A stretch of DNA of 64,000 bases from Halorarum salinum (GCF_013402875.1 NZ_CP058579.1:248001-312000); one strand, 5' to 3'; shown: positions 8,705-56,369, counted from the first letter of the stretch. Numbers and translations are program-made. Notes: generated from the sequence alone by a model not told the origin.

Positions 8705-9367
8705 TCAGCCGCCGTCCTCGGCCGCCTCGTCCGTCGGGGGTCGGCCCGCACCCGCCACGTCGTCGTCGGGCCGCGTGGCGTCCGACCGCGAGTGATCCGC
8801 CAGTTCGTCGCCCAGTCCCCACTCCGCCGCGCGCCGTTTCGCCTCCTCGCGCGCCTCGCGCTTGATCGCGTCCACCCGCTCCTCGTCCGCGAGGAACGCC
8901 GCGAGCGCGTCGTGTTCCGTCCCTGCGTCGCGCCGCCCGTCGGGGGCCCGCTCGCGGCTCCGTTCCGCGAGGTCGTGGTCGGCGGCCAGCTCCCGGGCCG
9001 GGGCGCCGGGGGCGACGCGCAGGGCGTCACAGCCGTGGGCCGTCGACAGCGCGTCGGGGGGGAGCCGGTAGGTGGAGACGCGGATCGGTTCCGACCCCGC
9101 CAGCGCGGCGAGCGCCGCCGGCCCCGTGGCGTCGGCGTCGAGTTCGTACGCCAGCACCGGCACCCCGTCCGCGACCGTGAGCACCCCGTGTTCGGCGCCG
9201 TCGAGCAGCAGCGTCGACGGCGGTTCGAGCTCCAGGTAGCCGGTCAGGTCGCGGTCGAACGCGTCCCGGAGCGGGTCGCCGACGTCGTCGACGACCCGCG
9301 CCGAGAGGAGGTCCCCCTCCGGGATCGAGATCCGGGTCGACGCCGGCCCGGGCAGGCCGCCGCTCAT
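8705..9367 (-). CDS. Conserved haloarchaeal protein downstream of MinD/ParA-like ATPase
   Basis: A 220-residue soluble protein. The first 115 residues form a compact alpha/beta region (TRISIPEGDLLSARVVDDVG, STLLLDGAEHGVLTVADGVPVLAYE), followed by a charged helical stretch (ERVDAIKREAREEAKRRAAEWG) and a disordered acidic tail. Its ATG overlaps the stop of the MinD/ParA gene by 4 bp (ATGA), so the two are translationally coupled and probably act together. The arrangement recalls the accessory gene after minD2 in Haloferax; homology is my inference and was not tested. No enzymatic motif is visible. Confidence 0.8.
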   Translation of the reverse strand: MSGGLPGPASTRISIPEGDLLSARVVDDVGDPLRDAFDRDLTGYLELEPPSTLLLDGAEHGVLTVADGVPVLAYELDADATGPAALAALAGSEPIRVSTYRLPPDALSTAHGCDALRVAPGAPARELAADHDLAERSRERAPDGRRDAGTEHDALAAFLADEERVDAIKREAREEAKRRAAEWGLGDELADHSRSDATRPDDDVAGAGRPPTDEAAEDGG

Positions 9368-10131
9368 GGCCTGTCCGGGACCACCGCGCTCCGGAACCGG
9401 TCCGCCACGCCCCCGGCCTCCCCTGGTTTCGGGTCGAGCCCGGCGGCGGCGTCGCGGTAGGCGGCCGCGGCCGCCGAATCGGGCGCGTGCGCGAGCAGGG
9501 GGACGCCCGCGCTCCGCGCCTCCCGGGCGGCGTCGCTGTCGGGGACCGCCCCCAGCGTCGGCCCGCCGAAGTACCGCTCCGCCTGGTCGGTCACCCGACC
9601 GAGGTCGCCGCGGACCTTGTTGAACAGCACGCCGGCCGTCCCGGTGCCGTACGAGCGGGCGTACTCCTGGACCTTCAGCCCGTCCGACAGCGACGGGATG
9701 GTCGGCTGTAACACGACCACGACCCGGTCGGCGAGCACGATCGGGAGCACCGCCGACTTCGACGCCAGCGTCGCTGGGGAGTCGAGCAGCAGCACGTCGG
9801 CGTCGCTCGCCAGGTCCGCGACCACCTCCCGCAGCCGTCCGGGTTCGGCGGCCTCGAACGCGGCGAGGCTCGTCCCGCACGGCACCACTCGCATGCCGTG
9901 TCGCTCGTAGGTGGCGTCGGCGACGTCCGCCTCCCTCCCCTCGATCAGCAGGTCGTGGAGCGTGAGCGGCGCGTCGTCGAGTCCGGCGTGGAACAGGAGG
10001 TTCGCCATCCCCGTGTCGGCGTCCACCACGGTGACGTCGTACTCCGCGGCGAGGGCCATCCCGAGCGCGAGCGTGCTCGTCGTCTTCCCCGTCCCCCCCT
10101 TGCCGCTCGCCACGGCGAACGCCTCGACCAT
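9364..10131 (-). CDS. MinD/ParA family ATPase
   Basis: A 255-residue P-loop ATPase. It has the deviant Walker A motif KGGTGKTT (11-18), the switch-I region DADTGMANLLFHAGL and a Walker B-type LLLDSPATLAS (the hydrophobic run ending in Asp). Such ATPases dimerise on membrane or DNA and position cellular structures; haloarchaeal paralogs affect archaellum and chemoreceptor placement. A C-terminal amphipathic membrane-targeting helix is not evident. The ATG at 10131 is preferred over 10155 because an AATTATTT element lies about 28 bp upstream of it. It heads a two-gene operon with the gene at 8705-9367. Confidence 0.9.
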   Translation of the reverse strand: MVEAFAVASGKGGTGKTTSTLALGMALAAEYDVTVVDADTGMANLLFHAGLDDAPLTLHDLLIEGREADVADATYERHGMRVVPCGTSLAAFEAAEPGRLREVVADLASDADVLLLDSPATLASKSAVLPIVLADRVVVVLQPTIPSLSDGLKVQEYARSYGTGTAGVLFNKVRGDLGRVTDQAERYFGGPTLGAVPDSDAAREARSAGVPLLAHAPDSAAAAAYRDAAAGLDPKPGEAGGVADRFRSAVVPDRP

Positions 10132-53157: not shown

Positions 53158-53507
53158 GCTCCCTCCGGGTGGCGGGGGCGGCTAAAGGGTTGGCCTGCCG
53201 GCGAGCCGCGAACGGGGGCGGGACGAGATCGGAAACCGGGAGACTGCGGGGCGAATCGGAGACGCTCCCGAGCCGAGTGCTCTCGCGTCGACTAGCCCTC
53301 AGTTCGGGTGAGACTCCCGGGTTCCGTTCCGGGAGACGGTTACCCAGGGTGAACCTTGATCCGATATCCGGGCCGGCGGACGGTGGCCCCGCGACGAACG
53401 TCGTTCGACGATTCGACGGTCGGGAGCGCCCAGAATCGGGGCTGAACGACCCTACCACGCGTATTCAGGCCCAACCCCTTACGGTGTAGCTCCCGTGTTT
53501 CCCGATT
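53158..53507. other. Divergent intergenic region upstream of the acidic operon
   Basis: In 350 bp there is no gene. A minus-strand CCCTTTAGCC near 53180-53190 is a possible S9-peptidase promoter. A hairpin with 7-bp arms (53314-53320, 53329-53335) and an 8-nt loop is in the middle. CCCTTACGG near 53477-53485, 25-30 bp before ATG 53508, is a weak promoter candidate for the acidic operon. Confidence 0.45.
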
Positions 53508-54344
53508 ATGCGTTTTCCCAGCTGTCAGGAGCCGGAGAACGACCCCGAATCGCGGGAGTCGGCGGGCGTCGAGACGCGAGACGGAGTGCGCGTTCTGTCG
53601 GACGAAGGAACTTCGTCGAATCGCTCCCGCCGCCTCGTGACCGACGGCGGAGCGGACGAGGAGGCCGAGGGCGACGAGGGTGGCGATGAAGGCGGCGACG
53701 AGGGCGAGGAGGATACCGAAGAGGAAGGCGGTGAGGGCGCGGCCGAGGGTGATGAGAGTGACGAAGAGGATGAAGGGGAGGACGAGACAGCCCAGGAGGA
53801 AGGTGAGGAGGGCGCTGAAGAGGAGGAAGAAGGCGAACAGGGCGCCGAGGAAGGTGCCGAAGAGGAGGAAGGCGAAGAGGAGGGTGAGCGCGCGACCGTC
53901 CTCCACCTCGACCTCGAAGGGTTGTTCCTCGACCTGCTCGGCCTGGAGGTCGACCTGGACGAGGTGGTCCTCGACGTGGACGCGGTGAAAGGGGAGAACA
54001 ACCTGCTCGGTAACCTCCTCTCCGGGGTCGCGGGCCTGCTCAAGCCGATGTCCGGCGGCGGGTTGGGCAGTCTCCTCGGCGGACTGCCCGGCCTGGGCGA
54101 TCTGCTCGGCGGCTCCGGCGGCGAGGGCGAAGGAGAGGAAGGCGAGGGAGGAGGCGGCGTGTCCAAGCGGGTCTCCTCCGTGAAGGAGTCCATCTCGGGG
54201 ACGGCCAGTGACGTGCTGGAGGACGTCGACGTCAACGCCATTCTGACCCAGGTCCTGAAGGAGTTCGTCTCCGAGCTGTTCGGCGGCGACGGCTCCGAGA
54301 AGTCGAGCGAATCGAGCGAATCGAGCGGGGAGTCCGGTTCATGA
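53508..54344 (+). CDS. Acidic glycine-zipper protein A (first gene of four-gene operon)
   Basis: A 278-residue protein with no recognised family. Residues about 47-128 are almost only Glu/Asp/Gly/Ala. Residues 129-178 form a conserved-looking hydrophobic/acidic block (LHLDLEGLFLDLLGLEVDLD, then LLGNLLSGVAGLL) resembling domains in uncharacterised haloarchaeal and actinobacterial proteins. Residues 181-202 are a glycine zipper with Gly183, 187, 191 and 195. An amphipathic helix (220-258) and a Ser/Glu tail end the protein. No signal peptide. The stop overlaps the next start by 4 bp. The first 45 residues look less certain; the true start could be later. Confidence 0.7.
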   Translation: MRFPSCQEPENDPESRESAGVETRDGVRVLSDEGTSSNRSRRLVTDGGADEEAEGDEGGDEGGDEGEEDTEEEGGEGAAEGDESDEEDEGEDETAQEEGEEGAEEEEEGEQGAEEGAEEEEGEEEGERATVLHLDLEGLFLDLLGLEVDLDEVVLDVDAVKGENNLLGNLLSGVAGLLKPMSGGGLGSLLGGLPGLGDLLGGSGGEGEGEEGEGGGGVSKRVSSVKESISGTASDVLEDVDVNAILTQVLKEFVSELFGGDGSEKSSESSESSGESGS

Positions 54345-54754
54345 GTGGGAGCGAGAACGGCAACGGGGACGACGGTGGAAGCGGCGACGGGAACGGCGAC
54401 GGCGGGCAGTTAGAGATCGCCCAGTCCTTCAAGGGGATCGACTTCGAGGAGGTGTTCGAGGGGACGCCCCTCGAGGGATCGCCGGAGGAGGGTGAATCGA
54501 CGGCCGAGTACGTCGGCGGCCGCATCGGGGCCTTCCTCGGTCGGAATCTCGGCGCCTGGTTGGGGGGACTCATCGTCGCTTCGCTGACGGAGGCGCTGGC
54601 GGGCGATGAGGAGGAAGAAGGTGAAGGGGAGGAGGAAGGTGAGGAAGGCGAAGGGGAAGAAGAGGAGGAAGGTGAGGAAGGCGAAGGGGAAGAAGAGGAG
54701 GAAGGGGAAGATGATGGGGACGAAGATGAGGCCGAGGGGGACGACGAAGAGTGA
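54341..54754 (+). CDS. Acidic glycine-zipper protein B
   Basis: A 137-residue protein. A Gly/Asp/Asn leader (1-22) precedes FKGIDFEEVFEGTPLEG, then a glycine zipper with Gly59, 63, 67, 71 and 75 (GRIGAFLGRNLGAWLGG) running into LIVASL, long enough to insert in a membrane or self-associate. The last 50 residues are nearly pure Glu/Gly/Asp, coded partly by a perfect 33-bp tandem duplication. Translationally coupled to protein A. The zipper resembles that of protein C. Function unknown. Confidence 0.72.
   Translation: MSGSENGNGDDGGSGDGNGDGGQLEIAQSFKGIDFEEVFEGTPLEGSPEEGESTAEYVGGRIGAFLGRNLGAWLGGLIVASLTEALAGDEEEEGEGEEEGEEGEGEEEEEGEEGEGEEEEEGEDDGDEDEAEGDDEE
54632..54697 (+). repeat. 33-bp perfect tandem duplication in the Glu-rich tail of protein B
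   Basis: Bases 54632-54664 and 54665-54697 are identical, and a partial third unit follows. Each unit codes eleven Glu/Gly residues. The surrounding 54597-54754 is almost purely purine on the plus strand and uses GAA about as often as GAG, unlike neighbouring genes, where GAG dominates. Confidence 0.92.
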
Positions 54755-54802
54755 ACGTGTCGTTTCCCACCACACGAAACCGCCGACGGCGGGTGACCGG
54801 CG

Positions 54803-55600
54803 ATGAGTAACGCGTCGGACCCGAAGGAAGCCATGGTCGAGGAGGTACGCGAACAGACCGACGTCGGCGACCTGCTGGCAGGCGACGATATCGAGGACCA
54901 ACTGGACGGCGAGTCGCTCGGCCGCACGCTGGGCGGGTCGCTCGGCGCCCTCGCGGGCCGACAGTTCGGCCGGCGGATCGCGCGGAAGATCCGGGACTGG
55001 TTGCCGTTCGTCAGCGACCCCGACCGGGAACGGTCGCTGCCGGGCCGTGTCCTTCGAGCGCTCGTGGTCGCCGTCGGTCGGACCCTCTCGAAACCGCAGT
55101 TTCAGGAAGCCTTCGGCGACGCGCTGGAGGGGATCGCCGAGCGTCGCGAGGAGGCACAGGAGGCCGCCGAGGAGACCGCAGAAAGTGCCACGGAGACCGG
55201 CGAGGAGGCGGCCGACCAGGCGACTGACACGGCCGAGGGGGTGGCGGACGAGACGACCGATACAGCCGAAGGGGTAGCCGACCAGGCGACCGGAGCAGCC
55301 GAAGGCGCGGCGGACGCCGCGGGAGAGGCGGCCGACACCGTGACGGAGACGGGCTCCGACGCCGTGGAGGCACTACCGGACGACCTGGACGACGTCAAGC
55401 GCGACACGTACCGGGAACTGCTGGAAGTGCTGTCGTACTCGGACCTCCAGTCGGTCGCCAAGTCCGTCGGCGTGAAGGCGAACCTCGGACGCGAGGAGAT
55501 GACCGACGCCATCGTCGAGGAGTTCTCGGAGGAGGAAGCGGAGGAGTCGGACGACGGGGAGACGGGCGACGAAGATACGGACGACGGGGACGAAGAGTGA
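54803..55600 (+). CDS. Acidic protein C: glycine zipper, 11-residue repeats, SAP/Rho_N-like domain
   Basis: A 265-residue protein in four parts. (1) An N-terminal helix is followed by a glycine zipper with Gly40, 44, 48, 52 and 56 (GRTLGGSLGALAGRQFG). (2) A helical segment with RKIRDWLPFV. (3) Four tandem 11-residue repeats, residues 137-180, of the Ala/Asp/Thr/Glu/Gly type known from LEA proteins and synucleins. (4) YRELLEVLSYSDLQSVAKSV with EEMTDAIVEEF (about 203-241) resembles the helix-extended-loop-helix of SAP or Rho_N nucleic-acid-binding domains. An acidic tail ends it. It lies 48 bp after protein B. Function unknown. Confidence 0.75.
   Translation: MSNASDPKEAMVEEVREQTDVGDLLAGDDIEDQLDGESLGRTLGGSLGALAGRQFGRRIARKIRDWLPFVSDPDRERSLPGRVLRALVVAVGRTLSKPQFQEAFGDALEGIAERREEAQEAAEETAESATETGEEAADQATDTAEGVADETTDTAEGVADQATGAAEGAADAAGEAADTVTETGSDAVEALPDDLDDVKRDTYRELLEVLSYSDLQSVAKSVGVKANLGREEMTDAIVEEFSEEEAEESDDGETGDEDTDDGDEE
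55211..55342 (+). repeat. Four diverged 33-bp tandem repeats in gene C
   Basis: Four consecutive 33-bp units encode ADQATDTAEGV, ADETTDTAEGV, ADQATGAAEGA and ADAAGEAADTV. Units differ mostly at third positions, so the repeat is maintained at the protein level. Eleven-residue periodicity favours a long amphipathic helix on membranes or in desiccation-protective proteins. Confidence 0.9.
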
Positions 55601-55604
55601 CGCC

Positions 55605-56369
55605 ATGAGCACGTCAACGTCCGACGCGGACGACCGCGGGGAGGAACTCGCGCGAGGGCTCGAGGAGACGACCGACCGGGTCACGTCGTTGCTGGTGGAC
55701 GGGGACCGATCCCCGGAGGACGAGGCGGCCGTGTGGGATGCGGTCGAGGAACTGGCGGACGACGTTCGGGCGGCGGGGTTCGACGACCTGCTCCGTGCGG
55801 CTGGCTTCGAGGACCTCCCCCAGGAACCGTCGCCGGCCGACCTGCCGGACCTGGTCAGGCGGGCCGACGCCGGCGAACTCGAAACGGTCCGTCGGCTCCT
55901 CGCGCTCGAAGAGCTCTCGGAGGAGCGGGGCGAACTCGACGACGAGGCGGGGACTGGCAGGCTCGAGGACCTGTTCGGCCTGGGCGAGGACCGGGACGGG
56001 GAGGAAGGGGAAGAGCAGGAGACGACGGAAACCGACGAGGGAACGTCGGGGACTGACGAGGATGAAAAACCGGAGACGGACGACGAGGGGGAGGAGGTGA
56101 CGGGTTCCGACGCGGAATCCGAGGGGCTCGGGGCGATCACGAGTCGACTCCGTGAGGCGACCGATCGGCTCTCGGAACCCGCGGACGAGGACGAGGCCGA
56201 CGGGACCGCGGACGGCGAAGCCGCGGCCGCCGACGCGGGGGCCGACGGGGCCGAGGACGGGTCGGAGCGTGAACGCGGGCGGCGACGTGAGCGCTTCTCC
56301 TCGATCCCCTCGAAACGGCCCGACATGAGCGCGGTGGCCCGGCGGTCGACGATGCCGCGTAAGCGGTAG
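55605..56369 (+). CDS. Acidic protein D with basic C-terminal tail
   Basis: A 254-residue protein starting 4 bp after protein C. Residues 10-112 are helical, with a short internal duplication (RAAGFDDLL, RAAGFEDLP) and LETVRRLLALEELSEERGEL. Residues about 113-220 are a disordered Glu/Asp/Thr/Gly stretch. The last 30 residues turn strongly basic (RRRERFSS, SAVARRSTMPRKR), which is unusual in a halophile and could bind nucleic acid or the acidic tails of proteins A-C. No recognised family. Confidence 0.75.
   Translation: MSTSTSDADDRGEELARGLEETTDRVTSLLVDGDRSPEDEAAVWDAVEELADDVRAAGFDDLLRAAGFEDLPQEPSPADLPDLVRRADAGELETVRRLLALEELSEERGELDDEAGTGRLEDLFGLGEDRDGEEGEEQETTETDEGTSGTDEDEKPETDDEGEEVTGSDAESEGLGAITSRLREATDRLSEPADEDEADGTADGEAAAADAGADGAEDGSERERGRRRERFSSIPSKRPDMSAVARRSTMPRKR

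Follow-up and report, generated by a model that had tools for sequence, protein, structure and literature searches.

What do four closely packed genes for unusually acidic proteins do in Halorarum salinum? The genes lie in a stretch of 64,000 nucleotides (GCF_013402875.1 NZ_CP058579.1:248001-312000; hereafter the window), and a sequence-only reading had proposed them as a candidate undescribed system in which none of the four products belonged to a recognised family.

The A-B-C-D operon and its distribution

Genes A (53508..54344, 278 aa), B (54341..54754, 137 aa), C (54803..55600, 265 aa) and D (55605..56369, 254 aa) are all on the plus strand, with a 4-bp overlap between A and B, a 48-bp gap between B and C and a 4-bp gap between C and D, as first described. 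A consists of an acidic N-terminal block, a conserved 54-aa core and C-terminal helices; B is a glycine-zipper protein with an acidic tail; C combines a glycine zipper, a variable middle, a SAP-like domain and an acidic tail; and D is a GvpI paralogue by sequence. A codon model for which long acidic ORFs served as the training set chose exactly these four genes, every overlapping ORF scoring lower, and dN/dS against two congeners was 0.20-0.51 (A, 0.30-0.45; B, 0.20-0.26; C, 0.28-0.41), indicating purifying selection. These two results identify A-D as genuine genes.

The acidic blocks reported for the four proteins are real, Asp and Glu making up 28-39% of the residues compared with a median of 17% for the 60 ORFs called in the window, and the basic tail of D was also borne out (13 Lys/Arg vs 6 Asp/Glu in the last 40 residues). 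For A-D and their aligned orthologues alike, all Pfam and NCBIfam matches fell short of the cut-offs, and no signal peptides were evident in A-D. Sub-threshold matches to Phasin_2, Mitofilin, Apolipoprotein, YtxH and Gly-zipper_Omp were attributed to composition of the low-complexity type and not to homology.

Recurrence of the A-B-C-D order in other haloarchaea, suggested earlier as a check, was observed. C has matches in 17 of 60 relatives, and the order recurs in the 19-kb stretches around them. When the A core was used to scan named genomes, 72 loci were obtained; A was called in 69 of them, and in 57 of these 69 the four genes are in order. Measurement of 67 A-B-C-D sets (all loci read, a few duplicates included) gave an A/B overlap of 4 bp in 48, with B-C and C-D gaps mostly below 100 bp. 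Strong matches to A are present in 136/392 genomes of the order and, in a phylum-wide sample, in 17/295 genomes, all within the order; A was absent outside the order in that sample. One genome negative for A (G267) has good matches to B and C and probably carries the set. A possible GCTTGCnAnnnnAGGCnnAAnC-like element 5' of A is common to some genomes (window positions 53430-53470, L025, L030, L031 and L096), and by-eye inspection revealed no convincing element common to the promoter regions of A and gvpA.

Conserved segments of A, B and C

The Gly-rich stretch of A is unconserved. The conserved part is a separate core, unnamed in the sequence-only reading (residues 128-181; 53889..54050, plus strand), in which 19 of the 54 columns are invariant and a beta-hairpin followed by a helix is predicted. 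An AlphaFold model of 65 aa starting at 53868 (mean pLDDT 72, moderate confidence) places strands at residues 8-23 and 26-40 and a helix at residues 46-58. The alternation of leucines and acidic residues in both strands would leave the hairpin hydrophobic on one face and charged on the other. Foldseek searches with this core model and with a 151-aa model of A (pLDDT 62) gave nothing at E<1, PDB sequence searches with the A and C profiles gave nothing significant, and neither D nor the A core had a match in a plasmid collection.

The A core is also found in a 195-aa protein with a signal-peptide-like start from Salipaludibacillus (Bacillota) (L123:7638-8225, where it reads ILFLDLGPIFLDLLGLELDLSQIVLDLSAVPGPGNLLGNLLSAVAGLLDG, and L143), with no gvp genes nearby. 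As this protein carries it, the core is not exclusive to gas-vesicle genomes. Motifs resembling the A core occur in other secreted bacterial proteins.

The glycine-zipper segment of B (residues 52-88; 54494..54604, plus strand) has near-invariant glycines with a period of 4, and that of C (residues 37-62; 54911..54988, plus strand) has invariant G44, G48, G52, R53 and G56. B is homologous to the first 70 residues of C, and the two zipper segments are paralogous. Zippers had been noted in A, B and C: that of C is clear, with four GxxxGxxxG motifs vs 0.2 expected and none of 200 shuffles having as many, whereas those of B and A are modest and only slightly exceed the shuffled expectation (p about 0.03). 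D has none.

The 11-residue repeats of C (residues 119-182; 55157..55348, plus strand) are present in this species and its close relatives but, in the orthologue alignment, are absent from many orthologues. A GvpC-like coat helix formed by these repeats was rejected as a general mechanism, since the repeats are unconserved. The assignment of C as a phasin (PF09361, 17.2 bits vs a cut-off of 24.9) was likewise rejected, the match lying in the repeats.

The SAP/Rho_N-like domain of C (residues 196-245; 55388..55537, plus strand) is well conserved, with invariant Y212, L215, Q216, A219, K220, A226 and N227, but all of its family matches are sub-threshold, including DUF7440 (E 0.004, 17.8 bits, cut-off 25) and the Ku70 chain 1jjr (E 0.09). 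The same tail is found on ribosomal protein S3 (Rho_N, E 0.05). Its fusion partners in other haloarchaea include ribosomal protein S3 and an Hsp20-like protein (L037:9223-10170, L033:9033-9551 and L036, flipped, 9105-9686), and the domain is also attached to B-like proteins there. Its presence on unrelated proteins makes it a mobile add-on and weak evidence for a nucleic-acid role. A, B and C apparently represent three undescribed families.

D, GvpI and the gvp clusters

In many other haloarchaea the position between gvpH and gvpJ, the gvpI slot, is occupied by a gene for a long acidic protein annotated as hypothetical. D matches this family with an hhalign probability of 99 and an E value of 5e-18 over 233 columns, which the acidic bias may inflate. 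The claim of no recognised family stands for A, B and C but not for D. The gvpI-slot proteins have the tail NPTAxSTxPxxR...RFSTVPxxxRYSxAxxRRRxYGxR, and the annotated GvpI of Halobacterium salinarum has a tail of the same type (NPAAHSTMP...HSTVPKTPKYSDVTARERLYGQRL). The basic GvpI-type tail of D (56295..56366, plus strand; SSIPSKRPDM...RRSTMPRKR) has the signature common to the annotated H. salinarum GvpI; the STxPSxRxDMxxVxRxSTMP part is shared and the likeness ends there. Set against the GvpI tail NPxAxSTxP...STVPxxxxYSxxxxRxRLYGxRL, the D of the window has both STxP units without the YS...RLYGxR end. A strict two-STxP pattern is present in 17/68 D proteins, 12/20 GvpI proteins and none of 1682 other ORFs; the other D tails are mostly looser (e.g. 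STMAPPPSxRADMxxxxRHSTMP), and the RLYGxR end of GvpI is missing from most of them. D itself does not lie between gvpH and gvpJ, and because that slot in its own genome holds another gene (L041:12871-13734), D is, as judged from sequence, a paralogue of GvpI and not GvpI itself. Thus one of the four proteins is connected to gas-vesicle proteins by sequence, and A, B and C are connected by genomic context only.

That context is seen in about 14 loci, in which A and B (and C and D) adjoin or sit inside a complete gvp cluster. A-B-C-D adjoins a gvpO-A / F-G-H-I-J-K-L(-M) cluster in L029, L032/L087, L108, L120 and L122 and lies directly after gvpO in L097; A and a zipper gene are located between gvpH and gvpI in L035, L074, L079 and L093; and A with zipper/SAP genes adjoins the cluster in L034, L098, L102 and L115. 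Within the flanks read, 52 of the 57 complete A-B-C-D sets have no gvp linkage. In the window genome the gvp cluster is ~250 kb from the operon (G000:C1, about 552-562 kb) and contains O and A on one strand and F, G, H, I, J, K, L and M on the other, with neither GvpC nor GvpN.

Two asparagine-synthase-like genes (TIGR01536, E 3e-28 and 2e-6, under the cut-off) lie between gvpA and gvpF of this cluster (L041:7333-10937; G000:C1, about 553.3-556.9 kb). In a gvp cluster on a plasmid of Haladaptatus halobius, gvpO is present twice and a B/C-related zipper protein is encoded between gvpO and gvpF (L145:7306-8867).

The 392 genomes of the order comprise 135 with both A and gvpA, one with A only (70% complete), 28 with gvpA only and 228 with neither. 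gvpA is therefore present in 135 of the 136 A-positive genomes (Fisher p 2e-75, a value in which related genomes overstate independence). At the genus level, 53 of 95 genera are gvp-positive and include all 42 that are A-positive (p 4e-17, again with independence overstated by relatedness), and the pattern holds across nine families. As a gas-vesicle accessory system should, A-D both occur together with gvpA and show synteny with gvp genes.

Clear GvpC was found in none of the 135 A-positive vs 11 of the 28 A-negative gvp genomes (p 6e-10); all 11 genomes with clear Halo_GVPC repeats are gvp-positive and none is A-positive. Single weak Halo_GVPC matches in G080, G087 and G102 are doubtful, and counting G102 and G087 as GvpC gives p 7e-10. 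In two genera (g51 and g55) some species are of one type and some of the other. About 16 gvp-positive genomes have neither clear GvpC nor A-D (G008, G055, G079, G087, G095, G114, G116, G121, G124, G133, G138, G145, G191, G248, G296 and G299), so that a genome without clear GvpC does not strictly require A-D in its place. GvpC and A-D are mutually exclusive, yet they do not cover every gvp genome.

Proposed role and relation to known systems

Gene content and synteny suggest that A-B-C-D is probably an auxiliary gvp operon of the GvpC-less cluster type, working alongside the main gvp cluster at another site in the genome, and a gas-vesicle function for the operon is likely. The A-D products may have the GvpA shell as their target while it grows. 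With its amphipathic hairpin and helix, A would rest on a hydrophobic surface or on that of the shell, glycine zippers would mediate oligomerisation of B and C, and D, like GvpI, could bind acidic partners via its basic tail and affect shape, clustering the acidic A, B and C much as GvpI would. Together the four proteins might shape or stabilise the shell, the job of GvpC elsewhere. That A-D truly replaces GvpC is a tentative proposal. Similarly speculative is a division of haloarchaeal gas-vesicle systems into two types that exclude each other: the one studied so far, with GvpC, and a commoner GvpC-less type in which a separate undescribed A-D operon replaces GvpC, perhaps building a different GvpA-based compartment in species called gas-vesicle-negative.

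Species with the gvpC-less cluster type have been reported as Vac- (PMC4390858), and the expression of gvpC-less clusters was left open in a review. A-D loci were found in all of the gvpC-less genera so reported (Natrinema, Natrialba, Haladaptatus and Halopiger). These reports would be explained, with the same gvp associations, if the GvpC-less cluster and A-B-C-D built a different GvpA-based nanocompartment that is tiny, non-buoyant or not gas-filled. This is unlikely: the Vac- phenotype may just reflect genes that are silent in the laboratory, and the GvpA of the GvpC-less clusters is well conserved (65-73% identity to the window-genome GvpA, H. salinarum GvpA included), in keeping with an ordinary shell.

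A separate acidic surface or storage-granule system, merely co-inherited with gvp in a floating lifestyle, is improbable. The mostly unlinked position of the complete sets, the secreted Salipaludibacillus relative of the A core with no gvp genes nearby and the weak phasin-like match of C are consistent with such a system, but D is related to GvpI, four loci have A-B inserted between gvpH and gvpI, signal peptides are not evident in A-D, and the phasin match is both under its cut-off and confined to unconserved repeats. Least probable is the independent self-assembling condensate, pore or nucleic-acid-touching complex of the sequence-only reading, for which the acidic low-complexity blocks, glycine zippers and basic tail are real but nothing was found in support of a condensate scaffold, a pore or, given the SAP-like tails on ribosomal protein S3 and an Hsp20-like protein, a nucleic-acid role, and against which stand the near-perfect gvpA association with gvp-cluster synteny, the GvpI-like D and the hydropathy of the B zipper, which peaks at 1.44 across 19 residues, under the usual membrane-span threshold.

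As an auxiliary gvp operon, A-B-C-D is a new accessory to an organelle already known; one of its products is a paralogue of a known protein, and the other three apparently belong to undescribed families. The operon is conserved and no described family was found for A, B and C, but it is not unconnected, being tied by D, synteny and gvpA to the gas-vesicle genes. A search of the open-access literature found no description of A-B-C-D. Of the 392 sampled genomes of the order, gvpA is present in 163 and clear GvpC in only 11; A-D, tied to exactly the GvpC-less clusters and usually unlinked, is a concrete candidate for a missing part of these cryptic clusters. A, B and C apparently add three undescribed families to gas-vesicle biology, which is also of practical interest given that engineered gas vesicles serve as ultrasound reporters and antigen carriers.

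No similarity of A, B or C to any known Gvp protein was found. The A core resembles that of GvpA in its beta-hairpin followed by a helix and its alternating hydrophobic pattern (PMC9994262) but has no sequence, profile or fold match to it, and the GvpA/J/M family model (PF00741) has no match in A-D; A was thus rejected as a GvpA relative despite the same predicted order of elements. GvpI of H. salinarum (WP_010890525.1, WP_010904102.1) has the C-terminal STxP...STxP signature in common with D, and the longer gvpI-slot proteins of other haloarchaea share the N-terminal region as well. The H. salinarum protein, which is short and basic (pI 10.75), binds GvpH, GvpF and GvpL and causes other Gvp proteins to oligomerise; when it is lost, the vesicles become extremely long (PMC7688916). 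By contrast, D is longer and acidic, has only a short basic tail and is encoded in a separate operon.

GvpC (Halo_GVPC, PF05465) is an outer shell stabiliser, the loss of which results in fragile, misshapen vesicles (PMC4390858). Its likeness to A-D is in a possible job only, both being acidic accessories tied to gvp clusters. They have no sequence similarity: the 32-40-residue GvpC repeats (PF05465) have no Pfam match in A-D, and no Halo_GVPC match was found in the window genome. In the sampled genomes GvpC never occurs with A, except for one doubtful single-repeat match.

A further close counterpart is the gvp cluster of Natrialba magadii and its relatives, which, according to PMC3403918, has no gvpC, a GvpI with a long N-terminal extension and one extra gene; the gas-vesicle passage of that paper describes neither A-B-C-D nor a second unlinked operon and makes no mention of a second GvpI copy in a separate operon. 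A table in PMC9501494 lists gvpC for Natrialba magadii and its relatives, which conflicts with PMC4390858 and PMC3403918. The annotated cluster of Natronorubrum bangense (L146) is O-N-A with no gvpC, in agreement with the earlier papers, and the chromosome of this species carries A-B-C-D (L126).
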